A stretch of DNA of 64,000 bases from Pseudopyrenochaeta lycopersici (lineage: Eukaryota > Ascomycota > Dothideomycetes > Pleosporales > Pseudopyrenochaetaceae): positions 62,001 through 126,000 of the forward strand of contig NHZP01000041.1 in NCBI GenBank assembly GCA_003313425.1, read 5' to 3'. The notes below the pieces were generated by a model that had not been told where the DNA came from, searched no databases, and was given only the letters and a program-made list of their open reading frames with translations. Below, piece by piece: positions 33,912 through 39,587 of the stretch (within the stretch, counting starts at the first letter, position 1; the number at the start of each line of letters is the position of its first letter). A program made the translations under genes and the position numbers.

Positions 33912-36900
33912 TCACACCGCATATTTCAACGTCCACTCTCTAGCTCTCCGATTAAACTCCACCCTATCCTCACGAAACAACCTCGCCGATGTAAAACTCG
34001 AGTCAGGTGGAGCATATGGATCTTTCAATAGGCTCATAATAGATAGCAAGCCTAAATTCAACATACATTTGGGTCAGTCGATGATACTTGATAAAAGTAA
34101 TGTAATGTGCATCTGTGCCGTGCTTACACTTCGAGATCGTCAACGCCGGAGACCATTGGCCTCCTCCTCCTATTCCAAATCTGGGGCTGCTGCTGCGCAG
34201 GATGTCTAAGGAGATGCTGCCAAATTCGTTGATGTTGGGATGGAGAATCCTCGTCGTGAAATTGATCCTAGGTGGGTTGAAAGGGTAATCCTCAGGAAAA
34301 TGAATGGCGAGGAAGAATACCCCCCGGGAATATGGCGTATCCGACTACGCAAAAAAATAAGTGTCATTCGAAGTTTGAGAGTTGTACCTTACCGGTCCCA
34401 TAATTGTTGCTTGCCAAGCGAACTATTATTCGTATATTAGTTAGTTTATCAACGGCTGGAGAAAGGAGCTGGCTACGCACCAAGTCTTCGCCAATTGGCC
34501 CAGCGGAACAACTGGATAGCGGATTTTGACCTATATCTACAAGTTCCTTGTTAATCCGCTTCCTGGCCCCTCTCAGATTGGGATCTAAAGTTGTGAAAAG
34601 ATCGACTTTAGGTTGCAAAGGGGCTGCTGGTGACAGAGAAGTATTCCCAGCATCGCCAAACGTCGGTGATATGCTCTCAGGCCCAGTCGTTGATAGAAGG
34701 GAGGTGTTAGTCTGCGATGGAGACTGGGATACCATATCATAAATCCCGAACATACCCCTAGCAGTACGCGTTAGTTGTACGAACGAGCAATTGAAGATAT
34801 CAAAAAGTGAAAGGGTTCTCACTGGTCCGCGATAGCTGCATTTCCGTCTGCGGAATCTTGCTCTGAAGGACCTCCAATCTCTTCGCCAAGGTTATTAGTG
34901 GCACTCGCATGGTGTCTGAGAAGGTCGACCACATCGCCATGGTTGGCAGAAACAGCCACTTCTAATGCAGTAGAGTATGGACCAAGTTTAGTATCGCCGG
35001 ATTGCAGGCCCTCCAGAAGAGCGCGTTTAGCTGGATTGTTGCCACGTCGAGTAATAGCAGAATATACCGTATATAAACCTGTTTTATACTTCCGGGAGAC
35101 ATCGCATCCTCTCGCCAGTAATAGCCGTACCACATCTACATGTCCATTACTGGCGGCACCATGGAGCGGTGTCTTCCACATGTAGGTCGTGAAGTCGATC
35201 GGGAGACCAGCATCTAGAAGCAATTCCGTGGCTGACAAATTCCCATTCCAGGCGGCATCATGTAGTGCAACCAACCCTTCGTTATCGCAGTGTGTAAGGT
35301 CTGCATTGTGGCTCAAGAGAAATTTTAGCACATCGATATGACCCGTTGCGGCCGCTTCTTGGAGGGGTGACCTTCCAAGGTTGTTCTTGGAGTTTACCAC
35401 ATCCCCAAGCCCAACAAGCAGGGAAACAATAGCTAAATTACCGCTTCGGCTTGATATGTGAATTGGTGCATCGCCGCTCATGTTCCTATCGTGCATATTC
35501 GTGTTAGTTGCGAGAAATTGCCGAACTATCGTCTCATCACCCCGTTCCACGGCGATGTGAAATGGCGTTTCCTCGTCTGAGGATTGTTCTGCTCCGGATG
35601 CGCCATACTCTAAAAGGAGAGAAATGACGCGGTATTTGCCAGAGTTCACCGCACAGTGGAGTGCTGTCCATGCAGCGGGGTAACTCTTCAACGATACATC
35701 CGCTCCACGTAGAAGTAGGACGCGAACAACATCTTCGTGTCCACCGCTTGCTGCCTCATGCAATGGGGTTCTTCGACTACGAGTCAGAGAGTTGATAGAT
35801 GCAGAACGATCTAGAAGTAGCTCGACTATCTCCGCATTCCCCCTCTTAGCGGCATCATGCAAAGGAGTAGAGTCATGAAGCGAGTTTTGGGACTCGATGT
35901 CCGCGCCATTGTCTAGAAGCAGTGTCACCACATCGTTGAAGCCCTCTCTAGATGCTGCGTGGAGAGCTGTGACACCATTGGAATTTTGCTCTTGGACAAG
36001 GTAGCCCTCTGCTAATAGTTGCTTGCAAATTAAGTGGAGCCCGAAATGTGCGGCAAGCCATAGTCCATGTACATTATTCAAACGATGAACTTGACTGTAA
36101 CCTCCATAGCGGTGCTGTGATATGAACATGGCCTGAGCGGCACTGGCAACTGAGGATTTGAGATGGAGGAATTTGAGAATCAAGGACTGGGTATGGTCTT
36201 CAGTTTCTGAGTGGCCCCTTGCATGAATCCCCCAATACTTCGCAGCATATTGAAGAAGTGGATTTCTCTCAAATCTCCTATCCATGTCGAGGTCGTTTGT
36301 GCAGCAGCCGTTTTCGAATTCTTCAAATAAAAGGTAAGTCAGGCATGTCCGAGAAATCTCGATGTTCACATCCCCGAGCGCCGTGCTTGAGAACTTTCTG
36401 GCAAAATATTCCTGGAATGTGTAATGGACGAATCGCAAGACCTGAGCTTCCTCGTCGATAGTGACAATGCCAGCGCATGAAGATACTAAAATATCGATGT
36501 CCGGCAACGCCTCTTCTTTCAAATACGTGTCATCGGGTTTGATAGCAAGCGCCGTTTGAATTTCTTTGACTGTTAAAGATCTGGTGGTGCAGGATATCCA
36601 GGAGATGAGTCGTTTCGCTCGTTTAACACTCCTCTCGCTCTGCGCAAACACTCTCTGCAGCAAGTCTTCATATGTCGAATCAAGGTCTTCCGGGAGAGAT
36701 TGGAGAGCAGCACGAACACCCTGAACACTATCCTCGCCCGAAATATAGTCCATGTGAAGCCGAGCTAGTAGGAACCTGCGCCGAGTAGTTAGAACTGGTT
36801 AGACTGAACTGTATGTGAATACGATACGCACATTCCGTGGGCCTTCTTTGGCACTGAATCTAAGATTTCCTCTCGTAGGGAAGGCTTTCGTGCAATATGT

Positions 36901-39587
36901 CGATATAATCGGTTGCCGGATTTGATCCTTGTTTCTACATATCTCAAGATATCCATCTCAAGGGGCCGAATGGTGACCGTAGGAGAGTGCTCAAAAAATG
37001 GCTGGTCACTCTTTGGATAACGAGAAGTAACCAAGACATTGACATTTGGTCCTGCTCGGCAAAGTTCATTTAGAATGTCTGATGCAACTCCATCCTCGCA
37101 TTCATCTAGGGCGTCTAAAATGATGAAAACTTTCGAATACCTGCGAAGTTCAAATCGCAGGACAGTGATTACTTCCTCTAAGCTCGGTCGAGTACCCTTT
37201 GAGGTATTCTCTCGATAAAGACTGGAAACTGATGGGTGAACATCAGGCATATACGACAGTTGCATCCAAATGCTAGCAAGAAGGTTGGCCGAACTTTGGG
37301 CGGCCCGATCTTTATAGTTGAGGAAGACGCAAGCAACACCAATACTAGTGTCGTGTTGGTAAGATTCTCGAAGATGCTGGACAATGATGGCTCTGGTTGA
37401 GGTTAGTATAGAATATCTCCGCAAGGAAGGTCGACCGCATACGCTTGCATCGTTTTACCAGCTCCAGCTGATGACCAAGTCAGTGCATCGGCAGATTGGA
37501 AGATTAAAGGACGACTTACGAATCCCATGACACCACAGTCGCGTCTTAGTACCTGTGACCCAAGATTTGAAGATCTCTGACTGTAAGATCTCTTGGCCTG
37601 TGTCTTTTTGTTTTTTGACAATAATGTCTTTTTGTGTGACGAAGAAATTGAGAGGTGAGAGCCATTCACGAATAGTCCGTTGAAGTTGGGCTGTTGTCTC
37701 ATTAGATGCCTTTGCGAGCAGAAAATCCTTTGCCGATTGATGAACAAATGATATGGTGCGTTCCCGAAGTGTCAGAAAGGGCCCACAGAGCCCTATGATC
37801 TCGGATAGAGCTTCGAATTCGCCAGCGACTCCGCTGGGCATGTCGACGAAAGATGCTAACTCGTCTAATGTGACGGGCCGGTACACAGCCGAGACGACGG
37901 CCAGTATGCGTTTGCAAAGTTCAGCATCCTTTGAATCCCTGATCTGGTCTATCATCCGCCTGTAGAGGGCATCGAGTCCAGGGGGAAACGCCGTCAACGT
38001 CTCTTGAGCCTTCCATCGCGAGATACTGGAGAGTTCTTGACAGACCAAGGCCACCCAGAGGAAGGTGCCATTTGCATTTGACAACAAGTAACGCTGGACA
38101 GCGTTCCGCGTATTATTGTCGTATGCATTTTCCTTCGCCAACTGGTCAACCTTGCACTGGATGTATGAGGTAATAGCTGCAGATACGGATTTTTCATTCA
38201 GCTCAAGACACAGTCTATTTCCCTGCGTCGCAGTATTAAGTTTCTTCTCGATGATCGGCCAGTTGCGGCTAGAGACTACCCACTTAACACGAGGAGATGT
38301 AATCGTCTTCTTGACAATGAAGTCTAACAGTTTCGGCAAGTCTGTTACGCATTCGTCAAGCGCATCGACAATTAAATAGGTGCTGTTTAAGTTCGGGTCT
38401 TGTAGAACGTTGGTGAAGATCTCAGATAAAGCGACCCAGGCATTTGAGTCCTCGAAGAGGGCTTTTCCGGCGCTATCGTACTTCTTCCGTACATGCAAAA
38501 TGAGAGATGGCTGTTGGTTGACAAGTAAGTAGAGGAGGCCTCGAAGCACAGCCGTGGCAGTGTTGATTCGCGAGTCCGTAGCCTGGCAGAAGAAGTAGCA
38601 CAAATGATGCATCTTAGCCATGGACTTGTTCAACTCATTGATAATGCCGCAGAGCAGCATCGTTTTCCCTTTGCCAGGATCGCCCTTGATCCATAGCAGT
38701 CGGCTCCGTTGGTCGTCGCGCCATTGTTGGAAGTCGGCGTTTTCGAGGATCCAGCGGTACGAGTCTTGGAGCAGTCCGCCTTTGGTCTCTTTAATGCGTT
38801 TCTTATCATCGCGAGGATTAGTGAGGCGCAAGTCTTGCATACACTTCTTTAGCTCGCTGATCTCGTCCATAAGCCGTTTGAACGCCCTCGCCATCCCTTC
38901 ACCGTAGATAGGAGCTATGTATACACCAAAAATGCCCAGTAATGAATATGCTTTGTCTTCTTCGCGCTTGGTCTCGCGATGCTCTATCCACGATAATCGC
39001 TCGTTGACGCTGAATTGCGATGGAGAACCTCCTTGAAGCGCTGACAGAGGAAGTGCTGTTATTTCGTGGACATGTTGTAGCAGTGAGATTTTGTCACCGA
39101 GTCGATTACCGTCCCGGGAGAAAAACTCGACTGAACTCGGGGCAAGGAGCTCTTGGAGCGTCCAACCCCGAGTGAACCATCGGCTTCTCTGAAAAGCGGG
39201 TTCCCAGGTGAACTCGGAGGACCGGTCCCTTGCTTTCTGCTTAGCTGTTGAAACATCCGAGAGATAGACATAACATCGAGCCGCGTTGCGATACCAACGA
39301 AACATAGAGTTGATAGCATGCGACAGCTCGGCCTTGTTTGCCTTGTTGATACAACAGGTGTCAATCCAAAAGTATCGCAAGCCGTCTTGTCTCACTCGTT
39401 CTCCACAGAACTGGATCTTCTCATAGCCAGGTTTATCTTTGCCAGTGCCATGTTTCAGGTCTTCAAAAGTGACCTCATCAGCATCAGGGCCCCACGTATG
39501 CGAAAGGATGGCATATGGAGGGATAACATCGTCGCCAAACTGAGTAAGCGTGACATCACCAGCGTTGCTCCATCGCAAAAGACGCAT
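33912..39587 (-). CDS. HET-NACHT-NACHT-ankyrin-E2-like fusion protein
   Basis: Eight exons on the minus strand: 39587-37520, 37467-37443, 37392-36832, 36775-34823, 34757-34481, 34422-34393, 34344-34128 and 34051-33912; 5271 nt, 1757 codons with stop. Domains: HET (about 1-240; [33 protein letters not shown]), NACHT 1 (Walker A GDPGKGKT 302-309, Walker [10 protein letters not shown] near 404), its winged helix ([12 protein letters not shown] near 613), a linker ([10 protein letters not shown] near 640), NACHT 2 (GIPGAGKT 688-695 created by splicing exons 1 and 2, Walker [11 protein letters not shown] near 786), about 12 ankyrin repeats (about 1120-1507) and a UBC fold (about 1600-1756: [62 protein letters not shown]). 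The active-site Cys is Ser1683 (codon 34212-34210, FGSISLDIL), with HPN kept and 12 residues inserted before QWSP. NLR-type signalling is likely; the role of the E2-like tail is unknown. Confidence 0.88.

Follow-up and report, generated by a model that had tools for sequence, protein, structure and literature searches.

A predicted fungal protein joining HET, two NACHT domains, ankyrin repeats and a ubiquitin-conjugating end with serine at the active site

Gene model and domain organization

The 64,000-nucleotide window analyzed here comes from the Pleosporales fungus Pseudopyrenochaeta lycopersici (assembly GCA_003313425.1, contig NHZP01000041.1, positions 62,001 to 126,000 of the forward strand). 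Its minus strand carries, at window positions 39587..33912, a gene of eight exons that splice into 5271 nt encoding 1756 residues and one terminal stop, with the frame kept throughout. The domain order along the predicted protein is HET, NACHT1, NACHT2, ankyrin repeats and a ubiquitin-conjugating (UBC) end that resembles a ubiquitin-conjugating enzyme (E2). This gene model and domain order are confirmed as real at the sequence level, and the eight exons, seven in-phase introns and 1757 codons of the initial annotation were recovered. All seven introns are GT..AG and measure 48-76 nt; a branch-like site ([CT]T[AG]A[CT]) is present in six of them, intron 6 being without one by this pattern. Intron 6 does, however, coincide in position with an intron of the UBC4-type gene that the genome itself carries.

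Profile searches of the spliced protein, a check that the initial annotation had suggested, found the HET, NACHT, ankyrin and UBC domains. Pfam placed HET (PF06985) at residues 25-146 (55.9 bits, cut-off 22.5) and UQ_con at residues 1603-1750 (130.9 bits, cut-off 27), with two stretches each of NPHP3_N, NACHT and GPIID_WHD and matches to ankyrin models. A NACHT profile built in this analysis returned two NACHTs, at residues 273-457 and 660-839. Walker A and B of both NACHTs are intact by reading and the ankyrins lie C-terminally, which gives the predicted protein the domain and repeat organization of a nucleotide-binding oligomerization domain (NOD)-like receptor (NLR). The features of the gene, in window coordinates, are:

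37520..39587 (-), exon 1: one uninterrupted open reading frame (ORF) with HET, NACHT1, winged-helix domain (WHD), breakpoint of HET-NACHT-WD40 (HNWD) homology behind residue 630, and the pre-NACHT motif that opens NACHT2
39150..39515 (-), HET domain, residues 25-146 (Pfam PF06985)
38265..38762 (-), NACHT1, best NPHP3_N stretch, residues 276-441 (Pfam)
within exon 1 (-), NACHT1 P-loop GDPGKGKT, residues 302-309 (read from the translation)
37697..37698 (-), HNWD breakpoint, after residues 614-630 (end of DNA homology to paralog L079 on contig C54)
37644..37673 (-), pre-NACHT motif, residues 639-648, with which the NACHT2 module starts (motif)
37443..37467 (-), exon 2, 25 nt, completing the NACHT2 P-loop (splicing model)
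36832..37392 (-), exon 3: NACHT2, with Walker motif 787-796 and NVLVTSRYP 816-824 (translation)
34823..36775 (-), exon 4: second WHD and ankyrin array, the latter spanning roughly residues 1120-1511 as judged by eye (Pfam, translation)
34758..34822 (-), intron 4, 65 nt (GTGAGA..CTAAC..TAG)
34481..34757 (-), exon 5: linker 1537-1599 and UBC start from residue 1600 (translation)
34393..34422 (-), exon 6 of the UBC end, 30 nt; flanking introns matching those of the own UBC4-type gene in position and phase (intron comparison)
34128..34344 (-), exon 7 of the UBC end: HPN motif, Ser1683 and 11-residue insert (alignment)
34210..34212 (-), codon TCC for Ser1683, replacing the catalytic Cys (UBE2D3 Cys85; alignment)
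34159..34191 (-), insertion of 11 residues, 1690-1700, separating the catalytic loop from WSPAL (alignment)
33912..34051 (-), exon 8: UBC C-terminus, replaced gate loop DPYAPPDSS 1721-1729 and stop (alignment)

The HET-NACHT1 half

Compared with its paralogs, the region of residues 1-630 reads as the HET-NACHT half of an HNWD receptor, cut at a sharp breakpoint. Residues 1-629/631 are 59-72% identical to eight paralogs fetched from the same genome for their best NACHT scores. Beyond FVHQSAKD all eight go on into a tail resembling the one in L079, and the gene under study is without that tail. A DNA search with window 37300-37900 matched L079 at 93% identity over 196 bases, ending at window position 37697; the whole DNA homology to L079, in two pieces, begins 35 bases ahead of the start codon and ends at the same position. 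L079 is a HET-NACHT-WD40 gene (Pfam HET, NPHP3_N and WD40) of 1175 aa from its MRLL start, in which the paralog-like tail precedes WD40. The gene under study has the N-terminal HET and, directly after it, the HNWD-type NACHT, and is without the C-terminal WD40 sensor; a Pfam scan of the predicted protein found no WD40 repeats, whereas L079 has them.

The two genes are identical at 466 of 628 residues, and their nonsynonymous (dN, 0.157) and synonymous (dS, 0.625) divergences over the 628 aligned codons are as purifying selection predicts. Nucleotide identity to L079 is 0.87-0.95 over residues 521-631 versus 0.68-0.88 before, and the higher identity near the breakpoint fits a more recent exchange there.

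The NACHT2-ankyrin module

The connection from HET-NACHT1 to NACHT2 lies inside the single ORF of exon 1, with no intron needed at the join. The NACHT2 P-loop (GIPGAGKT, residues 688-695) straddles the junction of exons 1 and 2, so the initial claim that splicing creates it holds. A pre-NACHT motif (...Q.DI...TG...) is complete after the breakpoint; a strict pattern places it immediately ahead of the P-loop of the NACHT in 40 of the 120 relatives listed for residues 500-1600, starting in those 40 at residues ranging from 14 to 406. Since the motif after the breakpoint is a pre-NACHT motif, HET-NACHT1 would occupy the place of the N-terminal domain in NACHT-ankyrin receptors. No Met occurs between residues 583 and 696, and a NACHT2 gene with its own start codon was rejected on that ground. 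Among the relatives of residues 500-1600, P0003 and P0004 score best; P0003 aligns over 73% of this region at 35% identity, and P0004 over 79% at 38%.

A Cys-to-Ser E2 at the C-terminus

The UBC end is likely derived from the hub enzyme UBC4. With the 11-residue insert left out, it is identical to UBE2D3 at 96 of 145 residues (66%), a level at which there is little doubt about its fold, and it shares 90 of 132 residues (68%) with the genome's own UBC4-type gene (contig C1). For the latter pair nucleotide identity is 57%, dN is 0.355 and dS is not computable by NG86; because amino-acid identity exceeds nucleotide identity and dS has no value, we read the divergence as saturation combined with protein-level constraint. 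Three introns (after GEDL, after IMGP and within the codon after ISK) match those of the own UBC4-type gene in position and phase. The domain starts where UBE2D starts MALKRINKEL.

The initial annotation described the UBC fold as intact to REWTLKYA, which is true of the scaffold, HPN motif included, but not of the active site. There the catalytic Cys (Cys85 of UBE2D3) is replaced by Ser1683, 11 residues are inserted, and in the alignment, which is ungapped after the insert, all of N114 to L119 is replaced. N114 and D117, which we take to be gate residues of UBE2D-type E2s, become Y and P. Compared with UBE2D3, K4, R5, K8, S22, P61, F62, N77, D87, S94, P95 and A96 are kept, and C85, K63 (to N), N114, P115, D116, D117, P118 and L119 are changed. 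Residues that make contacts to the ubiquitin-activating enzyme (E1), to RING domains (P61, F62, S94, P95 and A96) and on the backside are mostly kept. S22 (backside) and F62 are mutated sites in PMC9954413 (this and all papers cited below are represented by excerpts of their text). The annotation had left the choice between a ubiquitin-related output and a decoy. An active E2 as output was rejected because the catalytic Cys and gate loop are lost; the decoy is the part that we favor.

Repeat-induced point mutation (RIP) was likewise rejected as the cause of the Cys-to-Ser change: the codon is TCC versus TGC in the own UBC4-type gene, which is neither a C-to-T nor a G-to-A change, and the composite RIP index over the gene is negative (-0.61). 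Ser was found only in the fused copy, all 16 other UBC-like places of the genome with a readable active-site motif having Cys; this search gave 34 matches at 30 loci, several overlapping, and the motif was unread in L019/L028, L021/L029, L023, L027 and L031/L033. The best PDB match of the UBC end is a UBE2D3 chain that also has Ser at the active site (6cp0_B).

When 5.8 billion database proteins were searched with the UBC end, the length range of about 966-3073 residues gave two matches among 164 candidates, and neither is an NLR. One of them, the tetratricopeptide repeat (TPR)-UBC protein P0001 of Sarcosagium campestre, has Ser at the catalytic position (HPNIDTNGSISL). At lengths of about 350-1115, 211 proteins matched UBC. 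The catalytic residue was read over 122 proteins (P0001, P0002 and the best 120 of the 211): C in 109, CC in one, CY in one, S in three (P0001, P0160 and P0136), K in one (P0137) and G in one (P0229), with six lacking the motif; P0136 and P0137 are constructs by name. P0160 (Rhizophagus clarus, Ser) and P0229 (Rhizophagus irregularis, Gly) are hAT-transposase proteins with an N-terminal UBE2D-like domain, apparently a separate capture of a dead E2.

Rarity of the architecture

The profile test that scores two NACHTs in the predicted protein found two in none of the 120 best of 1767 relatives of residues 500-1600, giving one in 113 and none in seven; 7985 candidates sharing most words had been scored. 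Simple motifs suggested a second P-loop for P0005 and, for P0034, another Walker-B-like motif, but the profile test assigned one NACHT to each. No other tandem NACHT pair within 5 kb on one strand was present among 113 NACHT-like genome places compared, namely 86 listed NACHT matches (87 of 146 candidates scored) and 27 hand-picked from the 85 of a second listing, the rest of which were judged by eye to be repeats of the first listing or outside the NACHT core. A NACHT pair on contig C39 was rejected as a tandem, its alignment to the query being that of one NACHT split by a 53-base gap.

Literature searches found no paper on a fungal protein with two NACHT domains, on a fungal HET/NACHT NLR with a ubiquitin-conjugating domain, or on any NLR with an integrated E2 domain, and "UBCc" was absent among the matches listed. 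Neither a UBC domain nor a double-NACHT NLR is named in the excerpts of PMC4986451, PMC9815663 and PMC12258605, and these surveys, as far as excerpted, do not contradict the initial statement that known fungal NLR-like proteins have one NACHT. The methods of PMC12258605 mention orthogroups with multiple nucleotide-binding (NB) domains; the excerpt names three (including OG0000039), all excluded as non-NLR or other families. Within these searches the order HET, two NACHTs, ankyrins and E2-like end is as rare as first proposed. The earlier interpretation is partly supported overall; the HNWD front half with its breakpoint, the UBC4-type introns and the catalytic Ser had escaped it.

A proposed nested receptor with an E2 decoy, and its alternatives

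The best explanation, which we favor tentatively, is that an executor and a sensor NLR are combined in one chain with a catalytically dead UBC4 as an integrated decoy. HET-NACHT1, of HNWD type without its WD40 sensor, would fill the effector position of a NACHT2-ankyrin sensor NLR, and the UBC copy, alone or with the ankyrins, would act as bait, attracting a factor that can bind or modify E2s of the UBC4 type. We read it as bait because of its likely hub-enzyme origin, lost catalysis and kept surfaces. Once the bait was bound, NACHT2 would open and oligomerize, bringing HET-NACHT1 units together; NACHT1 would stabilize the HET assembly, and the TIR-like HET domains would start regulated cell death. 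Ser1683 may hold ubiquitin as a stable oxyester, making the bait a long-lived mimic of a charged E2. HET domains are TIR-related and reported to be sufficient to kill (PMC12881547, PMC10197012, PMC10890737). The effector OspG has been described bound to UbcH5c-O~Ub (PDB 4BVU; PMC4197628), an entry among the best PDB matches of the UBC end, and this complex shows that in animals an effector can target an E2 of the UBE2D type. A more specific proposal, that a HET-NACHT module serves as the effector of another NLR in one chain and that the bait is a natural Cys-to-Ser E2, lockable by an oxyester and sensing attackers of the ubiquitin system, is somewhat unlikely to hold in full. Fungal NLRs may use integrated decoys as plant NLRs do, and for the present candidate one can point to a likely source gene, to the residues that have changed and to the executor module. 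If real, the arrangement would be a route by which an allorecognition death module is re-aimed, its WD40 sensor being swapped for a complete second receptor.

Several points weigh against the nested receptor. Fungal integrated decoys are themselves unproven, and the mechanism of HET killing is undescribed in the excerpts of PMC12881547, PMC10197012 and PMC10890737. The gene is one gene in one genome, no orthologue occurring among the database matches listed. The UBC4-type gene has a fourth intron, before DPPSS, that is missing from the fused copy, and a UBC tree (123 rows thinned to 79) leaves that copy unplaced on a very long branch (1.39), so that introns and identity are the grounds for deriving it from UBC4; some of the constraint at the protein level may be older than the fusion. 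The one-chain protein is a prediction from genomic DNA. Its weakest join is intron 4 (65 nt, 34822..34758), the sole link from the ankyrins to the UBC end; by a loose pattern, counted before demanding the correct frame, 144 of 2739 stop codons in any frame of the gene strand (5.3%) fall within an intron-like stretch whose donor lies no more than 30 nt before them. Met codons 1538 and 1544 of exon 5 could start a separate UBC protein, and a separate UBC gene starting at Met1538 is a possible alternative. The reliance on intron 4 and these Met codons also speak for an error in the gene model or the assembly, or for a recent chimera that is not expressed, in which HET-NACHT1, NACHT2-ankyrin and UBC are not one protein. 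Transposon ORFs also flank the gene on both sides (hAT and DDE_1), and identity to the HNWD paralog rises toward the breakpoint, so that the join could be recent and not yet proven by selection. However, HET-NACHT1-NACHT2 is uninterrupted and has no Met at NACHT2, the model of 1756 residues contains no stop or frame break, its RIP index is -0.61 and the window contains no N. We consider this explanation unlikely.

The two remaining alternatives accept one chain and give the dead E2 another role. It might dock RING-type ubiquitin ligases (E3s), so that the receptor is ubiquitinated and kept low, and failure of the E3 or proteasome would stabilize it and bring death, making it a guard of the ubiquitin system. 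P61, F62, S94, P95 and A96, the RING contacts, are indeed kept while catalytic residues are lost, but K63 has become N, active E2s would presumably compete for the same E3s, and E3 docking is a proposal only; such control by turnover is improbable in our judgment. Alternatively, oligomerized Ser-E2 heads charged as stable oxyesters might sequester ubiquitin, E1 or E3 as an output that adds to HET death. UbcH5B C85S makes a stable ubiquitin oxyester in vitro (PMC9954413), and N77, D87, K4, R5 and K8 are kept. Charging may nevertheless fail, the gate loop (114-119) being replaced and 11 residues inserted near the active site, and HET is reported to be sufficient to kill (PMC12881547); we regard a ubiquitin trap as very unlikely.

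Neighboring genes and genome observations

A BCS1-like frame lies at window 32640-33794 (-), with a BCS1_N match of 124.9 bits and an AAA match that ends after 41 of 131 model positions; a hAT transposase ORF (29836-31869) follows it in the same orientation. The hAT element may interrupt the BCS1-like frame; alternatively, the frame may be followed by an intron. Just upstream of the gene, at 40455-41565 (-), a DDE_1 transposase match overlaps a copia RNase-H-like stretch recognized by eye, with no Pfam hit. Also on the minus strand are a second HET-domain gene (44665-46923, an open frame of 753 residues, HET 116.9 bits) and a second hAT dimerization-domain ORF (58261-59301, 48.7 bits). The composite RIP index is positive in five of the six 1-kb steps of 30001-33000 and 42001-45000 (0.86 at 43 kb), compared with -0.61 over the gene. 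Elsewhere in the genome, C5:1749322 and C37:268784, as well as C9:87500 and C25:483755, are NLR genes that lie on different contigs yet agree exactly in NACHT score and frame length; they may be duplicates of recent origin or copies of two haplotypes in the assembly.

Comparison with known systems

The HNWD family (HET-E/HET-D/HET-R type) shares HET and NACHT1 over residues 1-630; in place of its WD40 sensor and post-NACHT segment, the gene described here has a whole NACHT-ankyrin-UBC receptor. Fungal NACHT-ankyrin NLRs, such as the PNP_UDP-NACHT-ANK protein P0003, share the pre-NACHT motif, P-loop, WHD and ankyrins, but carry PNP or another effector N-terminally where HET-NACHT1 stands here, and the E2-like end is an addition of the present gene. 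P0001 of S. campestre likewise joins repeats to a UBE2D-like domain at the C-terminus, with Ser in the catalytic place; it differs in having no HET or NACHT, TPR instead of ankyrin repeats and a kept gate loop (DPNPDDP), and its model probably reads through an intron, as judged by eye.

For the candidate decoy itself, the excerpts of PMC12258605 describe a CHK2-like kinase as a putative C-terminal integrated decoy in Sordariales NLRs, and also propose zinc-finger and SPRY domains as sensors. Like the UBC end, the CHK2-like domain is placed C-terminally on a NACHT NLR; it is a core-enzyme copy traced to a core gene, as the UBC end probably is too. The CHK2-like candidates, however, are kinases in nine NLRs of several taxa, perhaps from one integration, whereas the present case is a dead E2 behind two NACHTs in one gene. 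Two nucleotide-binding modules (NB-ARC) are likewise predicted in a single NLR for PibH8 of rice (PMC12533315, as excerpted), which differs in combining NB-ARC with leucine-rich repeats, in having no E2 and in belonging to another kingdom.

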